Origin: Desulfonauticus submarinus
GTDB taxonomy: Bacteria > Desulfobacterota > Desulfovibrionia > Desulfovibrionales > Desulfonatronovibrionaceae
Assembly (NCBI RefSeq): GCF_900104045.1
Contig: NZ_FNIN01000004.1
Coordinates: 1 to 64,000 of the forward strand
Direction: 5' to 3'
DNA length: 64,000 nucleotides
The notes below the pieces were generated by a model that searched no databases, was not told where the DNA came from, and was given only the letters and a program-made list of their open reading frames with translations. The position numbers and the translations under genes were made by a program. Positions 40,707 through 58,460 of this stretch are shown piece by piece (within the stretch, counting starts at the first letter, position 1; the number at the start of each line of letters is the position of its first letter).

Positions 40707-41162
40707 ATGATGAAGAGGTGTATATTTTCTATAATAGTTTTAAGTTTTTTTATTTTTATTTCTGTCAACGTAAATGCAGGTGATTATGTTGGATCAAAGC
40801 AGTGTGGTGAATGTCATGAGAAAGAGTATAAAAATTTTATAACATATTCCAAAAAAGCAAAAAGTTTTGAACATATAAAAAAGATGTTCCCAAAACTTGA
40901 GGAAAGAGAAAGACAAGAATGTTATGCTTGTCATACCACTGGATATGGTAAAGGTGGGTTTATTTCTTATGAAAAAACTCCAGAGTTAAGTGATGTTGGT
41001 TGTGAAACTTGTCATGGTCCGGGCAAAGAACATGTAGAATCTGGAGGAGATCCTGAATTAATTAGATTAAAAATGGATTTAAAAACTTGTAATGATTGTC
41101 ATACATCTGAAAGAGTAAAAACTTTTAATTTTAAGCCTTTGCTTTATGGTGGAGTGCATTAA
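40707..41162 (+). CDS. Periplasmic tetraheme c-type cytochrome (cytochrome c554 type)
   Basis: 151 residues with a signal peptide ending VNA near residue 24. Four CxxCH sites are present: CGECH 33-37, CYACH 72-76, CETCH 99-103 and CNDCH 128-132. The spacing and the [10 protein letters not shown] opening match the cytochrome c554 / multiheme CxxCH family. It should carry electrons in the periplasm. It stands 29 bp upstream of a chemoreceptor that has its own CxxCH and is very likely in the same operon, so a sensory rather than purely respiratory role is possible. Confidence 0.85.
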
Positions 41163-41191
41163 ATTTATGTGGCGGAAAAGAGGTAATTATT

Positions 41192-43219
41192 ATGTGGAAT
41201 AAATTGTCTTCAAGTTTGCATTTAAAAACAGGAGTTCTTGTAACAGTTGTAGCCTTATTTATTTTTGTAGCTTTATTAGGAGCGATGAATTTTTTAGAAA
41301 GAAGGCTTATTTTTTCTCTTTTAGAGGGAGATGTGCAAAAACTTTCTCAAGCATTGGAAAACGGAATAAGAAAACCAATGATTAGAGGTGATGATGAGGG
41401 TACTAAAGAAGAATTCTCAAATCTCTCCAAAACACATAAAGATTTGCATGTGTTTCTTACTGACTTTCAAGGTAAGGCAACTTATTCCACTTTAAAGGAT
41501 CAAAGAGGAAAAAATTTTATTCAGAGTAAATTTGGCCAAAAAATTTTAGATTTTAAAAATATATTAGAAGGAAAAATAAGAAATGAGATAATGTCTTTAG
41601 TGAATTTAGACAAAAATGTGTATTTTGTAAGGGCAAAGCCTATTTTTAATAAGCCGAGTTGTTATCATTGCCATGGTAAGGCGCATAATATTTTAGGTAG
41701 CTTAATTATTTTTCAAGATGTTACTCCTACCATGAAAAAGATAAAGTCCCAGACATGGGAAATTGCTTTGGCTTGTAGTGGAGCGTTGATTCTTCTCGTA
41801 GTGATAGTCAACCTATTTTTACGTAAAAACGTTTTACAACCAATAAAAGAAATTGCTCAGGCAAGTAGTGCAATTGCTAAAGGTAATTATAGCCAGGAGT
41901 TTATTACTTCTCGTAAAGATGAGTTAGGAGACCTTGCTCGTAATTTAGAACATATGGTAGACACACTAAAAAGAGAACTGGGATTTTCAAAAGGAGTTTT
42001 ACAAAGTCTAACAGCTCCATTTTTGGTATGTGATACAGAGCAAAAAGTAAGTTATACTAATAAAGCTATGCTTGATTTTTTAGGGTTAGAAGGCGAACCC
42101 AAAGATTATATCGGACAATATGTTGGAGAATTTTTTTACGGAGATAAAAATCACAAAACAGTAGTAGGACAAGCCTTAGAAACAGGCGAAGTGATGAGAA
42201 ACATACAACGAAGTATCACAAATAGAAAAGGTAAAAAGGTTTTTTTTATAGGAGATGCAGCTCCTTTAAGAGATTTAGATGGAGAGCTTATTGGTGCATT
42301 TATTTTAATTACGGATTTAACAAAGCTTAAAAATCAACAAGAACAGATAGAAGCTCAGAATAAAGCAATTGCACAAGCAGCAGTAAAAGCTTTAGAAGTT
42401 TCTGAACAGGTTTCTTCTGCTTCTGATGAACTTTCTGCTCAAATGGAAGAAGCAGCTAGTGGGACAAACAGACAAGAAAGGATGGTTTCAGAGGCTGCCA
42501 CAGCTATGGAACAGATGAATGTTTCTGTTTTAGAAGTTGCTAAAAATGCGGCGAATGCCGCCAATTTGGCTGAGGAAGCAAGAGAAAAGGCTATTGCAGG
42601 ACAAACTGTAGTAAAAGAAGCCATGAATTTAATTTCCCAGGTTGTGGAACACAGCAAGCATTTAATGGAAAGTATGAAAAATTTAGGCGTGCAAGCCGAA
42701 GGTATTGGAAAAATTATTGTCACTATAGAAGACATTGCAGATCAAACTAATTTATTGGCTTTAAATGCAGCTATTGAAGCAGCAAGGGCAGGAGATGCAG
42801 GAAGAGGTTTTGCTGTAGTAGCTGATGAAGTGAGAAAGTTGGCAGAAAAAACTATGGCCGCAACAAAGGAAGTAGCTACTTATATTGGCCAGATTCAAGA
42901 TAGTGCCCAAGAAAATATTTTTGAGACTACTAAAACCTTAGAAGTTGTAGAAGAAACTAGACATAAATCTGAAGAATCTGGGAAAGCGTTAGAGGATATT
43001 GTTCATATTGTGGAGTCTACTTCTGATCAAGTCAGGAATATTGCTACAGCATCAGAGGAACAGTCTGCTGCATCAGAACAGATAACTCATTCTATGGAGG
43101 AAATTAGGAAAGTATCTAGAGAGATTGCAGATACTATGGAGCAAAGCAATGCAGCTATTGGGGAATTGGCCAAACTAGCCTTGCGTTTAAAGGGTATTAT
43201 TGAAGAGTTAAAGGGATAA
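41192..43219 (+). CDS. Heme-binding methyl-accepting chemotaxis protein with PAS domain
   Basis: 675 residues. TM1 is about 12-34. The periplasmic sensor (35-188) resembles the DUF3365/Tll0287-like type and carries a c-type heme site, CYHCH, at 157-161. TM2 is about 190-210, then HAMP (211-262), a PAS domain (about 265-385) and the signalling coiled coil. The conserved tip reads [20 protein letters not shown], followed by [18 protein letters not shown]. It is comparable in design to DcrA of Desulfovibrio, a heme-containing redox/oxygen chemoreceptor. No CheR-tether pentapeptide is seen at the C terminus. Confidence 0.88.
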
Positions 43220-43257
43220 GTAAAAGATTAAGTAAAAAGCATACTACACAAGGAAAC

Positions 43258-43290
43258 AAAAAAAAGCGGTCAAGTTTGACCGCTTTTTTT
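43258..43290. terminator. Bidirectional rho-independent terminator
   Basis: AAAAGCGGTCA and TGACCGCTTTT form a GC-rich stem flanked by A and T runs, so it can serve both the chemoreceptor on the plus strand and the lipoprotein gene on the minus strand, which converge here. Confidence 0.88.
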
Positions 43291-43316
43291 TGTTTTTTAA
43301 ATGCTATTTAATAAAT

Positions 43317-44438
43317 TTAATAAACCTGGACACCTCCTATAGGAGCCTTTCTTTCAGGAGCTTTTCTAAGAAGATGTTTTTGCCTTCTTAGCTTCTGAGC
43401 GTCTCTAATTTTTCTTTTAATCCTAACTTTTGCTTCAATGTAAATGTCCTTGTCTCCATAGCGAGAGGCTTTTACAAAAAGGTCTTTTGCTTTAAGAAGA
43501 CTTTTTAAATCTCCTCTGGCTTCATAAGCTACACCTAAATTATAAAGTGCAGGAGCACAGTGAGGATTTTCTTCTAATACAACAGACCACATTTCCATAG
43601 CTCCTTCCCAGTCTCCTTTTTCTGCCAATTTAACTCCTTTTTTGACATAAGAAGGCCCGCTTTTATCCAATTCTACCTCAATAGTATATTTTGTAGGTGC
43701 TATTTTAGCTACTAATTTAGAAGCTATTTTTTGAGCCAGTAAACTCATTGTTTCTTCTGGTGTTGGCACTTGTTCGATACTGTTACCTCCACCAAAAATA
43801 CCTAAAAATCCGCCCTGGGCTTCTTCTTTACCGCCATATTTTTGTTTAAAACTCTCAGTAACTTGTTTAGTAGCTAGAATTTTTCTTGTTTTTAGGTCTA
43901 TTACTTTAATAGATGCTGTGAGTGAAGCAGTGCGAACAATATAAGGAACTCTTTTTAAAACAGTTTTCATAATTTCTTCATCTACAATTTCAGTTTTGCC
44001 AGTAAAAATATTTTTTCTTTTTACTTTTCTATATCGACCTGTACCCTCTTTCATTTGAACTTGATCATATCCTTTAATGTCCCTTATTTGTCCCACTACA
44101 TATCCTGCTATGGCAGCGTCTGCTTGGATTTCTTCAAAAGCAGGCACAAAGCGTGGGTCATCCATTTGCTCCCACTGGATTCTATCTAAGGCCTCGTTAT
44201 ATCTAAGGTCTTGTAGGGTGAAGTGCTTTACCTCATCTAATTTTGAATAGAATTCTTCTCGAACTAAATCACCATATTTTCCTTTAAATGGTAAAATAGC
44301 CAAAGTCTTTACTCCTGGCATAGCTACTTCTGCTGGTTTTATTGCTGTTAGTTTTGCTTTGGGAGCACAGGAAAACATAAAGAAAAGTGCACCTATTAAA
44401 GATAACAGCAAAATAGTTTTAGAATTTTTTACTTCCAT
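43317..44438 (-). CDS. TPR-containing lipoprotein with CsgG/LpoB-like region
   Basis: 373 residues. The signal peptide ends in a lipobox (FMFSC, Cys near 24). The first half (TLAILPFKGKYGDLVREEFY, then AAIAGYVVGQI) resembles the CsgG/LpoB type of outer-membrane lipoprotein domain. The second half has one to two TPR-like repeats (EKGDWEGAMEMWSVVLEENP, then ALYNLGVAYEARGDLKSLLK), and the tail is strongly basic. The role is not known. It follows the FlgT-like gene by 9 bp and so probably acts with it in the outer envelope. Confidence 0.6.
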   Translation of the reverse strand: MEVKNSKTILLLSLIGALFFMFSCAPKAKLTAIKPAEVAMPGVKTLAILPFKGKYGDLVREEFYSKLDEVKHFTLQDLRYNEALDRIQWEQMDDPRFVPAFEEIQADAAIAGYVVGQIRDIKGYDQVQMKEGTGRYRKVKRKNIFTGKTEIVDEEIMKTVLKRVPYIVRTASLTASIKVIDLKTRKILATKQVTESFKQKYGGKEEAQGGFLGIFGGGNSIEQVPTPEETMSLLAQKIASKLVAKIAPTKYTIEVELDKSGPSYVKKGVKLAEKGDWEGAMEMWSVVLEENPHCAPALYNLGVAYEARGDLKSLLKAKDLFVKASRYGDKDIYIEAKVRIKRKIRDAQKLRRQKHLLRKAPERKAPIGGVQVY

Positions 44439-44447
44439 ATGCCCTCC

Positions 44448-45665
44448 TTATTGAATATTGATATTGCGAAAAGGATTATCCGTACCTTTTTTGAAAAATA
44501 AGAATCGGTTGCCTTTAGCTTGTTGAGTTTGGAAAGCAATACCTCTTCTTTTCATTTGCATATATAACTGTCTTTGAAAATCAAACTTTTTACCTTGATA
44601 ATTTACATCTACTTGGAAGTTGCCAGGAGATTGTTGCCTTACATTTATGTCTTTTACGCCAGAGATGTTTTGTAAAATATCATAAATGGTATAAACTTCT
44701 TCTTCGCTAAAATTTCTAAACCAAATATCAAACCTGGCTCCGCCATGTACTTGACGTTCAAAATAAGCCAGAACATCACCAATAAGAGCTTTAGCGACGG
44801 CTTTACCTACTTTGTCAGCAGCTTTGGCAGCCATCATATCTTCATAATAGTTTCCACTAACTCTTTGGGTGCGGACATATAAGTCGCCGTGTTTTTGGGC
44901 GATGAGATCTCCTGTAGCAGGAGCGACAGCTTTTAAATCTACTTCTACCATAACACCGCCAAAATATTTACTTCTGCCACCTTTTTTTACTCCCACATGG
45001 ACGTCATAGACCAGGAGGAGATCTGCTCTGTATTTCAGGGCAAGGGCAGAGAGGTCGTCCATGTCTATATCAATTCTTCCAGCTTGTTCTATTTCATTAT
45101 AGACGTTGTTAACAAACATTTGATCTAGGACTACAAAGCCTTTTCTAGCAAATACCCCTTGAATTGCTTGCTCAGCCGCAATAACCGCTCTAGAGTTTCG
45201 ATAAGCACTAGAGTGTGTCCTTGGTAAGTATATAGTCATAAATCGAGGATTACCTACTTGTTGGCGTAAAATGCCAATGGCTCTCAAATCATTTTTGATG
45301 CTTTCTGTAGATACTACTGCTCTAATGGTTACATTATACATTTGTCCGTCTGGACTAGGACCTTCTGAAAGCACTTGATAATTTTTTACATAGCCTGATG
45401 CTTGAGAATATATTTTATCTGATAGAAGCTGATAATTTTTTACAATAGTGCTAGAATCTATTAAAGTTCCAATTCCCTGCTCTACAGCGCTTCTTAGAGC
45501 TTGTTGCAAAGCTTGATTTCTAGCTTGAGCCTGATTACCCATCATAGGCGCCATACCCGTAACCACTACTTCCTTTATGGCAAAGCTGTTTTTAGTAATA
45601 AACATAGGAAGCAGAAATAGAATAAAAAATATTATCCAGCAAAGCTTCATTTTTCTGCCTTTCAT
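44448..45665 (-). CDS. Exported protein with FlgT-like N-terminal domain
   Basis: 405 residues with a signal peptide (cleavage near residue 30). The segment after it, GMAPMMGNQAQARNQALQQA and on to SDKIYSQASGYVKNYQVLSE, follows the pattern of the FlgT N-terminal domain: an Ala/Gln-rich helix, a SDKI.. motif and a tyrosine-bearing strand. FlgT forms the outer-membrane H ring of sodium-driven flagellar motors in Vibrio. The middle and C-terminal parts are not assigned. I use the ATG at 45665, eight bases after AGGAGG. A flagellar or envelope role is inferred from the domain only. Confidence 0.55.
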   Translation of the reverse strand: MKGRKMKLCWIIFFILFLLPMFITKNSFAIKEVVVTGMAPMMGNQAQARNQALQQALRSAVEQGIGTLIDSSTIVKNYQLLSDKIYSQASGYVKNYQVLSEGPSPDGQMYNVTIRAVVSTESIKNDLRAIGILRQQVGNPRFMTIYLPRTHSSAYRNSRAVIAAEQAIQGVFARKGFVVLDQMFVNNVYNEIEQAGRIDIDMDDLSALALKYRADLLLVYDVHVGVKKGGRSKYFGGVMVEVDLKAVAPATGDLIAQKHGDLYVRTQRVSGNYYEDMMAAKAADKVGKAVAKALIGDVLAYFERQVHGGARFDIWFRNFSEEEVYTIYDILQNISGVKDINVRQQSPGNFQVDVNYQGKKFDFQRQLYMQMKRRGIAFQTQQAKGNRFLFFKKGTDNPFRNINIQ

Positions 45666-45951: not shown

Positions 45952-47760
45952 ATGTTTTCCAGGATAAAGTTTGGAACAAAACTTTTTGTAGCTGTAATAT
46001 GTGTATTAGGAATATCTATTTTATCTGTTAGCTTCTTGAATTATTATCAATTTCAAAAAACTTTATTCAGAGTGGGTAAGTCGTCTTTAGAAGAAATTTC
46101 TCAATGTATTTATAATGCTATATCTATGCAGAAAAATATAGAAAGAACAACTTTAATCCCTCAACTTGAGAAATATGTTTTAGATGCTTCTAAAAAGTTT
46201 AATGGAAAAGTATTTGTTTTTAATTCTAATGGCAAAATATTAATCCATTCTGATCGAAGTTTAGAGGGAAGAAGTGTATTTAATTTTATTAAAAATAAAA
46301 TAATTTTTGATTCAAAAAGAGGAGTTGTTAGTTATTCTTTAAATGGAAAAACCTATTTATTAATAACTCGTTATCTTAAGCCATTGGATTGGAATATCGC
46401 TGTGCAAATAAAAAAGAGTGATTTGTTACAAGATGTAGACAAAAGATTATTTTTTAATAGTATAATAGTTTTTATTTTAATCGTTGTAGTTAGTTCTATC
46501 TTGCTATGGTTTTTTTTACAAGTGATCATTAAACCATTACGGTTATTAGCGTATAAAAGCGAGGAAATTGCAGAAGGAAATTTTTCTATAGAATTTTCTT
46601 ATCAGGCAAAAGATGCAATAGGAGAGTTGTCTCATTCTTTTCAAATAATGGTAGAACATATAAAAAACATGTTTCTTGAAATTAGAGGTGGTGTGGGGAT
46701 GTTATCCTCTTCTGCTGCAGAACTAAATGTTATTGCTGATGAAATAAATTCTAACTCAGAAAAAACTAATACGTTAGTTACTAGTGCTGTTGGAGCTGCA
46801 GGGAGTTTGAATGAGAGTATGCATTCTGTAGCTCATATTATGCAACAAGCATCAGATAATATTAATACAGTTGCTTCTGCAGCAGAAGAATTTTCTATTA
46901 CTATTGACGAAGTTGCTCAAAACACTTCTAAAGCTAAAAGTGTAGCTACAAAAGCAGTGGATAAAGCGAATAATGCTTCTCAAAGAGTTAATAAGCTGGG
47001 CATAGCAGCAAATGAAATTAGTGTAGTAACTGAGACAATAAATGCAATAGCGTCTCAAACCAATTTGTTGGCATTAAATGCTACTATTGAAGCTGCTAGA
47101 GCTGGAGAAGCAGGAAAAGGTTTTGCTGTTGTAGCTAATGAAATTAAAGAGTTAGCTAAACAGACTGCTGTGGCTACTGAGGAAATAAAACAAAAGATAG
47201 AAGCAATTCAGCAAGAGACAGATTTTACTGTAAAAGAGATCCAAGATATATCCAAAGTAATAAAGGATATAGATGAAATTATTACTACAATTGCTGTTTC
47301 AGTGGAACAACAATCTGTTACTACAAAAGATATTGCAACTAATGTGAGTCAAGCTGCAGATGGTCTTGTAGGGGTTTCTCAACAAGTTAATGAAAGTGCT
47401 GTTGCTGCAGAAAATATTGCAAAGGAAATAGAAAATGTAAAGGAAATCGCTGATTTAATGGCTGTTTCAAGTTCTCATGTTTTTGATTTTAGTGAGAAGT
47501 TGTTGGATTTAGCAGATAAGTTAAATAAATTATTAAAAAGGTATAAGATTGATTTAGAGTGTGAGCTGTTGCCCAAATGTGGTTTTTTTAAAAAATATAA
47601 GGGAACAAAAGATGCTCTTTTAAAAGGATTTTTGCAGAGTTATTGTAAAGGCCCTATGATGAATGAATGTAAAAGAAAGCAATATAGACAGCAGCATGGA
47701 GTTCCTCCTAGTGATGATATGATGCCAAATGGCAAAATAGTAGAAGGATTGGAAAAATAG
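45952..47760 (+). CDS. Methyl-accepting chemotaxis protein with C-terminal cysteine cluster
   Basis: 602 residues. TM1 is about 9-31. The periplasmic part (32-165) has a Cache-like end ([20 protein letters not shown], then [19 protein letters not shown]). TM2 is about 172-195, then HAMP, then the signalling helices with tip [20 protein letters not shown]. After the receptor domain comes an unusual tail of about 65 residues with four cysteines (537, 543, 565, 573; CX5C-X21-CX7C) and a conserved-looking [14 protein letters not shown] end. The cysteines suggest metal or iron-sulfur binding in the cytoplasm. Confidence 0.85.
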
Positions 47761-57428: not shown

Positions 57429-58460
57429 ATGCGTAATATTTTAGAAGTAGAAAAAGAAGATCTTTTAGCTTGGTTTTTAACTCAAGGAGAGCAAAAATTT
57501 CGTGTTGAACAAGTTTGGCAGTGGTTATGGGGAAAAGGAGTTGAGAACTTTTATGAAATGACAAATATTTCTAAATTGTTGCGTGAACGATTAAATGAAA
57601 CATTTTCTATTTCTTGGCCTAAGTTAAATAAAGTCTCTGTAAGTAGGGATGGAACTCATAAATTCCTTATTAAACTTGAAGATAATGAACTAATAGAAAC
57701 GGTTTTGATTCCAGAAAAGGATCATTATACGCTGTGTATTTCTTCTCAAGTTGGTTGCCCTTTGGGATGTACCTTTTGTCATACTGGCCAAATGGGTTTT
57801 AAAAGAAATCTTAAGGCTTACGAAATTGTAGCCCAAGTAATATTGGCGAAGAAATTTATTCAAGAACATGGATTAGCCCGTTTGTTGCGTAATATTGTTT
57901 ATATGGGAATGGGAGAACCATTATTAAACTGGCAAGAAGTAAAAAAAAGTTTAGTAATTTTAAATCATGAAAAGTATTTAAATTTTTCTAAACGTAGAAT
58001 TACTTTGTCTACTATTGGGGTTTTAGATACACTGAGGTTGTTTGGAGATAGTAAATTAGGGAGATTAGCTGTTTCTTTACATGCTTCTTTTTCAACTTTA
58101 CGAACTAAAATAATGCCAGCTACTTCTAAATGGCCATTAGAAGAACTTTTATTAGCTTTAGAACAATATCCTTTGGAACCAAGAGAGAGGATCACTATAG
58201 AATATATTTTATTAAATGGAGTTAATGATTCTAAAGAAGACGCATTAGAGCTTGTTCGCATTTTAAAAGGAATTAGGTGTAAGATCAATTTAATAAAATA
58301 TAATCCGTGGCCTGGCAGTGCCTATAAGTCTCCTTCAGAAGAGCGTATTCTCGCCTTTGAAAAGGTGTTATGGGATCATAATTTAACTGCTATTTTGCGT
58401 AAAAGTAAAGGAGAGGATATTTTAGCTGCTTGTGGCCAATTGAGGGCAAGTGTAAATTGA
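57429..58460 (+). CDS. rlmN: 23S rRNA (A2503-C2) / tRNA (A37-C2) methyltransferase RlmN
   Basis: 343 residues. The radical SAM motif is CPLGCTFC near 112-119. It is preceded by IPEKDHYTLCISSQVGC and followed by GMGEPLLNW, then RRITLSTIGVLDTLRLF and KINLIKYNPWPGSAY. The second methylation Cys is in DILAACGQLRA near the end. It uses SAM both as methyl donor and radical source. Confidence 0.95.
   Translation: MRNILEVEKEDLLAWFLTQGEQKFRVEQVWQWLWGKGVENFYEMTNISKLLRERLNETFSISWPKLNKVSVSRDGTHKFLIKLEDNELIETVLIPEKDHYTLCISSQVGCPLGCTFCHTGQMGFKRNLKAYEIVAQVILAKKFIQEHGLARLLRNIVYMGMGEPLLNWQEVKKSLVILNHEKYLNFSKRRITLSTIGVLDTLRLFGDSKLGRLAVSLHASFSTLRTKIMPATSKWPLEELLLALEQYPLEPRERITIEYILLNGVNDSKEDALELVRILKGIRCKINLIKYNPWPGSAYKSPSEERILAFEKVLWDHNLTAILRKSKGEDILAACGQLRASVN

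Follow-up and report, generated by a model that had tools for sequence, protein, structure and literature searches.

Chemoreceptors that carry a c-type heme are known, and DcrA of Desulfovibrio vulgaris, attributed to Fu, Wall and Voordouw in 1994, is reportedly the founding member. By profile as well as by fold, the closest solved structures to the receptor analysed here are those of GSU0582 and GSU0935 of Geobacter sulfurreducens (PDB 3b47 and 3b42; Pfam family PF21563), which have potentials of -156 and -251 mV, whose hemes also bind NO and CO, and which crystallized as domain-swapped dimers; in GSU0582, Met60 is a ligand of the heme in its reduced state and dissociates when the heme is oxidized (PMC8396549). 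Another described system is the sCache_heme/Tll0287-like domain (PF11845), which, as in our receptor, is periplasmic and Cache-like with an inserted CxxCH, and of which a HAMP-linked, signalling-type protein binds NO tightly and behaves as an NO sensor (PMC12889525). The text of this 2026 preprint mentions neither operons nor multiheme cytochromes nor DcrA. Nitrosomonas cytochrome c554 (1bvb), likewise a four-heme c-type protein, is the best sequence match in the PDB to the cytochrome described below (E 6e-8). In a literature search that had most subscription papers outside its reach, we found no description of the cytochrome-receptor pair, of a dedicated tetraheme partner, of its phylum-wide conservation and two matched types, or of the place of DcrA relative to them.

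Here we compare with these systems a locus of Desulfonauticus submarinus (order Desulfovibrionales; genome of 2.1 Mb), which lies in a 64,000-nucleotide stretch of DNA that we call the window. A gene for a tetraheme cytochrome is followed there by a gene for a heme-c chemoreceptor (Table 1), and we estimate at slightly better than one in two the probability that the two encode a dedicated two-protein periplasmic redox sensor.

The gene pair and its products

The original prediction described a cytochrome with four CxxCH sites ending 29 bases before a chemoreceptor that has a CYHCH in its periplasmic part and a PAS domain in its cytoplasmic part. Both open reading frames, their motifs and the 29-base gap were found as described, and the Pfam domains of the receptor scored over their cut-offs. 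Downstream of the receptor gene lies a strong hairpin with a T-rich 3' arm, which was missed by a simple terminator scan and detected by direct folding, while the stretch between the two genes contains no comparable hairpin (fold z 0.3); this arrangement argues for a simple two-gene unit, in which the genes are presumably co-transcribed. A sigma-28 (flagellar) promoter upstream of the cytochrome gene was not seen in the window and occurs only in few relatives. Apart from these two, just one of the window's frames of 100 aa or more bears a CxxCH, and a single one (57429-58457). The pair is adjoined by genes for a DUF6340 protein (43317-44438, minus strand) and a FlgT_N-domain protein (44448-45665; flagellar assembly), and both genes are also found flanking the cytochrome in locus L064. 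A second chemoreceptor of 602 aa, with a weak dCache domain and a Cys-rich C-terminal tail, is encoded at 45952-47760; receptors with a similar N-terminus directly follow the cytochrome-receptor pair in loci L066 (from 6359) and L068 (from 4004).

Table 1. Positions in the window of the two genes, their heme-related and signalling features, and the downstream hairpin
Feature	Position	Strand	Basis
Secreted tetraheme c-type cytochrome, 151 aa, Cytochrome_C554 family	40707..41162	+	ORF; PF13435 69.7 bits; 33-sequence alignment
Heme site 1, CGECH, residues 33-37	40803..40817	+	sequence; invariant in 33-sequence alignment
Heme site 2, CYACH, residues 72-76	40920..40934	+	sequence; invariant in 33-sequence alignment
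Heme site 3, CETCH, residues 99-103	41001..41015	+	sequence; invariant in 33-sequence alignment
His109 of GPGxxH motif, candidate distal heme ligand	41031..41033	+	33/33 in alignment column
Heme site 4, CNDCH, residues 128-132	41088..41102	+	sequence; invariant in 33-sequence alignment
C-terminal His151, candidate distal heme ligand	41157..41159	+	conserved as last residue
Heme-c chemoreceptor, 675 aa	41192..43219	+	ORF; Pfam; structure model; best PDB match 3b42 (GSU0935)
Met63, aligns with GSU0582 Met60 (distal heme ligand)	41378..41380	+	profile alignment to 3b47
Receptor heme site CYHCH, residues 157-161, type-A motif CxHCH	41660..41674	+	sequence; invariant in homologues
HAMP domain, residues 209-260	41816..41971	+	PF00672 53 bits
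Cytoplasmic PAS domain, residues 269-375	41996..42316	+	PF00989 / PF08448 / PF13426 over cut-off
MCP signalling domain, residues 458-641	42563..43114	+	PF00015 154 bits
Intrinsic terminator-like hairpin, 3' of receptor gene	43251..43298	+	RNA fold -29.2 kcal/mol, z -6.9

The N-terminus of the cytochrome resembles a signal peptide, and the protein contains exactly four CxxCH sites; like 33 of 33 homologues, it matches the Cytochrome_C554 family, with a score above the cut-off of 20.8 bits. It is shorter than Nitrosomonas cytochrome c554, has a conserved C-terminal histidine and is genetically tied to a receptor, and it does not belong to the c554 equivalog family (NF043010; 45.6 bits vs a cut-off of 400). 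Its final residue is histidine in 66 of the 67 cytochromes of the named loci. Besides the four proximal histidines, only His109 and His151 are invariant, so that at least one of the four hemes may be without a second histidine ligand. The AlphaFold model of the cytochrome was poor (pLDDT 65); a PDB search from it gave nothing usable.

The receptor is laid out as a first transmembrane helix, a periplasmic PAS/Cache-like heme domain, a second transmembrane helix, HAMP, PAS and an MCP signalling domain. Its AlphaFold model (pLDDT 90) shows a long first helix, a PAS/Cache-like core and a second helix that enters HAMP at residue 209. A Foldseek search of the PDB with this model returned GSU0935 (3b42) first (E 1.5e-6) and GSU0582 (3b47) at rank 10, with low TM-scores that are expected because the crystal structures are domain-swapped dimers. 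A single-sequence search of the PDB with the sensor domain found no convincing relative, and a profile of the wider family gave only two strong matches, GSU0935 (5e-10) and GSU0582 (1e-7). By itself, the window receptor gives no PF21563 hit and falls below the cut-off, but 20 of the 25 members of its family alignment match PF21563, and several cytochrome-paired receptors exceed the cut-off. The Geobacter proteins have a CxxCH at the same place and a distal Met60 that corresponds to Met63 (numbering checked from His143 of the GSU0582 CxxCH); they differ from the window receptor in having CQSCH instead of CxHCH, in lacking a cytoplasmic PAS domain and in their low sequence identity to it. The cysteines and histidine of the heme site are invariant in 36 of 36 homologues, and Met63 is conserved in all 36 close homologues and in 24 of 25 sequences of a wide set. 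Homology to GSU0935 and GSU0582 strongly implies that the CYHCH is heme-loaded. Genes for c-type cytochrome assembly, for flagellins and for proteins of the CheW/CheA type are present in the host genome, so that both heme loading and taxis are possible.

The same genome encodes two further heme-type sensors. One, a histidine kinase (G000:C7:15529-16014, locus L001), contains a true sCache_heme/Tll0287 domain (124.9 bits), and the other is a paralogous heme chemoreceptor (G000:C13:9076-9642; L063 4068-5729) that has CHHCH, no PAS domain and no adjoining cytochrome, and that follows response-regulator genes, an arrangement also seen in L124. Among distant, cytochrome-less receptors of the Desulfobacterota, five (L258, L266, L267, L273 and L277) have two CxxCH motifs in the sensor domain (e.g., CYGCH and CYPCH) and possibly carry two hemes of their own.

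In a different explanation, the receptor heme senses periplasmic NO (or O2 or CO) and the cytochrome serves to reset the sensor, either by keeping the receptor heme reduced or by removing the gas or its products. The scarcity of invariant histidines, which may leave one or more cytochrome hemes ligand-open, fits such a role, as do the binding of NO and CO by GSU0582 and GSU0935 (PMC8396549) and the tight NO binding of the HAMP-linked heme-Cache protein (PMC12889525). The window receptor itself nevertheless scores below the cut-off of the sCache_heme/Tll0287-like family (PF11845; 16.2-20.3 bits vs 24.1), and it keeps a likely internal ligand, Met63. Moreover, most carriers of the pair are anaerobes, for which NO is no general cue, and we regard a gas sensor with a helper cytochrome as rather unlikely.

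Conservation of the pair and matching of its partners

The cytochrome is present in 40 of 60 relatives besides the window genome, mostly a short distance upstream of a receptor homologue. When GTDB contigs were scanned with just the sensor domain of the receptor, 80 loci emerged, almost all from Desulfovibrionales and two from Desulfacinum, in which the cytochrome gene lies directly upstream on the same strand in 65, downstream in 2, and is absent in 13; the gap between the genes in the 65 upstream cases has a median of 11 bp (range 8-188). Pairing is tested more cleanly by searching with only the cytochrome, since neighbouring genes then have no influence on what is found. Across 395 Desulfobacterota genomes, each of the 44 close homologues (from 41 genomes) closely precedes a receptor on the same strand and none stands alone, where close homologues are those above a score gap from 145 to 97 bits, at which the cut was set after the scores had been seen. 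Below this gap, 11 of 17 examined single-domain cytochrome matches are also paired with a receptor, and long frames (about 400 aa and more) resemble UshA-like proteins (NF041198), whose C-terminus is related to the window cytochrome. The same gene order was found in dozens of genera of a phylum of mostly sulfate-reducing bacteria, and this recurrence, together with the invariant heme-site residues, indicates that the pair is more than a chance arrangement. In another Desulfonauticus genome (L064 4118-6573; L095 3989-6444), the cytochrome comes after the receptor, which is apparently frameshifted in its MCP region; a bin labelled Betaproteobacteria (L097 1783-4313) likewise has the reversed order, receptor then cytochrome.

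The partners also match each other. Tree distances of receptors and cytochromes are correlated (r = 0.744 over 67 pairs; 1000 permutations gave a mean of 0.00 and a maximum of 0.19), a correlation that is partly explained by linked genes being duplicated and inherited together. Swapping partners within a genome leaves species history unchanged, and over the seven genomes with two pairs the true assignment ranks first of 128 such swaps; one of the seven contributes a negligible difference, its two pairs being most closely related to each other. Two types of pair can be distinguished: type A, to which the window pair belongs, joins a cytochrome with the conserved C-terminal histidine to a receptor with CxHCH, and type B joins a cytochrome ending in CHxxHxH to a receptor with CxKCH. 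Cytochrome type agrees with receptor motif in 122 of 122 distinct pairs (111/111 CxHCH and 11/11 CxKCH), and both types coexist in six genomes (G344, G377, G379, G423, G447 and G644). Since motif and type track the receptor clades, this agreement speaks for co-inheritance and partner fidelity and is not proof of contact.

Such fidelity can be set against the idea that a general-purpose periplasmic cytochrome is merely transcribed with the receptor, both being required when the same redox conditions prevail. These genomes are rich in other multiheme cytochromes, and some receptors have no adjoining cytochrome, as this idea would allow, but it would not lead one to expect that 44 of 44 close cytochrome homologues adjoin such a receptor, or a perfect match of partner types that extends to genomes with both; we consider co-expression alone very unlikely. 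Conservation of the pair across the Desulfobacterota, on which the original prediction of a two-protein redox sensor for taxis depended, together with partner matching, lends good support to a partnership of the two proteins and to a two-protein sensing unit. The restriction to taxis proved too narrow, as the same cytochrome precedes histidine kinases of the receptor family in relatives. It accompanies MCPs with a PAS domain, MCPs without one, and these kinases, which suggests that coupling occurs at the periplasmic heme domain that they have in common.

The place of DcrA

The likeness to DcrA proved closer than the original prediction had claimed. DcrA and the window receptor belong to the same sensor-domain family, with the same order of TM, heme domain, TM, HAMP, PAS and MCP, a CxHCH motif and a conserved distal methionine. 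They differ in their neighbours: DcrA orthologues have desulfoferrodoxin/rubredoxin genes downstream and no adjoining cytochrome, whereas the window receptor, with the cytochrome upstream, DUF6340 and FlgT_N genes downstream and no desulfoferrodoxin/rubredoxin link, is a paralogue with its own cytochrome. The DcrA group comprises five cytochrome-less loci (L104, L107, L108, L109 and L119). In the two that were read, L104 and L107, desulfoferrodoxin genes follow the receptor, with rubredoxin in L104, an arrangement known for dcrA; the other three were assigned on the basis of the receptor tree and of downstream frames that look alike. In that tree, the five loci make up a single clade that lies within the cytochrome-paired receptors (85-86 SH-aLRT at the nesting nodes), and at least six changes between presence and absence of the cytochrome occur across it. 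The paired state thus looks ancestral and DcrA derived, a lead that rests on moderate node support. As heme sites are kept in the 13 of 80 named loci that have no cytochrome, DcrA included, a dedicated cytochrome is not always needed.

Proposed mechanism and significance

Given a distal methionine that is probably redox-switched in the receptor and four hemes in the cytochrome, electron exchange would be the simplest role for the latter. The most likely course is that electrons pass between the cytochrome and the receptor heme and that signalling is driven by a switch between Met-on and Met-off states. The cytochrome would equilibrate with the periplasmic electron pool, dock on the receptor heme domain and exchange electrons with its heme c. 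In the ferrous state, Met63 would be bound and the heme low spin, and upon oxidation Met63 would leave, as has been reported for GSU0582/GSU0935. This ligand switch may shift the first helix, and the change may be passed on via TM2, HAMP and PAS to the MCP tip that controls CheA, which would bias swimming toward a preferred redox level; in relatives with histidine-kinase outputs, the same input would be used for gene control.

Conserved adjacency also fits a co-receptor that does not act by redox chemistry, in which the cytochrome, once it has bound a substrate or a further protein, associates with the receptor without electron transfer. Periplasmic binding proteins dock on some chemoreceptors, and LuxQ, which works with LuxP, was a weak match among the Foldseek results for the receptor model; partner matching fits this possibility equally. 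Mere docking would not need the invariant heme sites of both partners, though, nor does it account for the invariant distal methionine, and we judge it quite improbable.

For the redox sensor, the recurrence of the pair suggests that the two proteins jointly sense redox state outside the inner membrane. A broader proposal, which we put forward tentatively and at a little under even odds, is that redox receptors made of two proteins form a class across the phylum, the receptor being gated by a dedicated multiheme cytochrome through protein-to-protein electron transfer to the receptor's own heme, with at least two matched types (CxHCH and CxKCH), both chemotaxis and kinase outputs, and DcrA as a derived member whose neighbouring cytochrome was lost. 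With a dedicated multiheme partner that co-evolves with the receptor, there is a concrete candidate for the protein that supplies electrons to c-type heme chemoreceptors or takes them up. If the proposal is right, signalling in these receptors would be gated by electron transfer between proteins and not by a diffusing ligand, DcrA would be reinterpreted as a member of a two-gene unit, and sulfate reducers would have a defined means of monitoring how oxidized or reduced their periplasm is.
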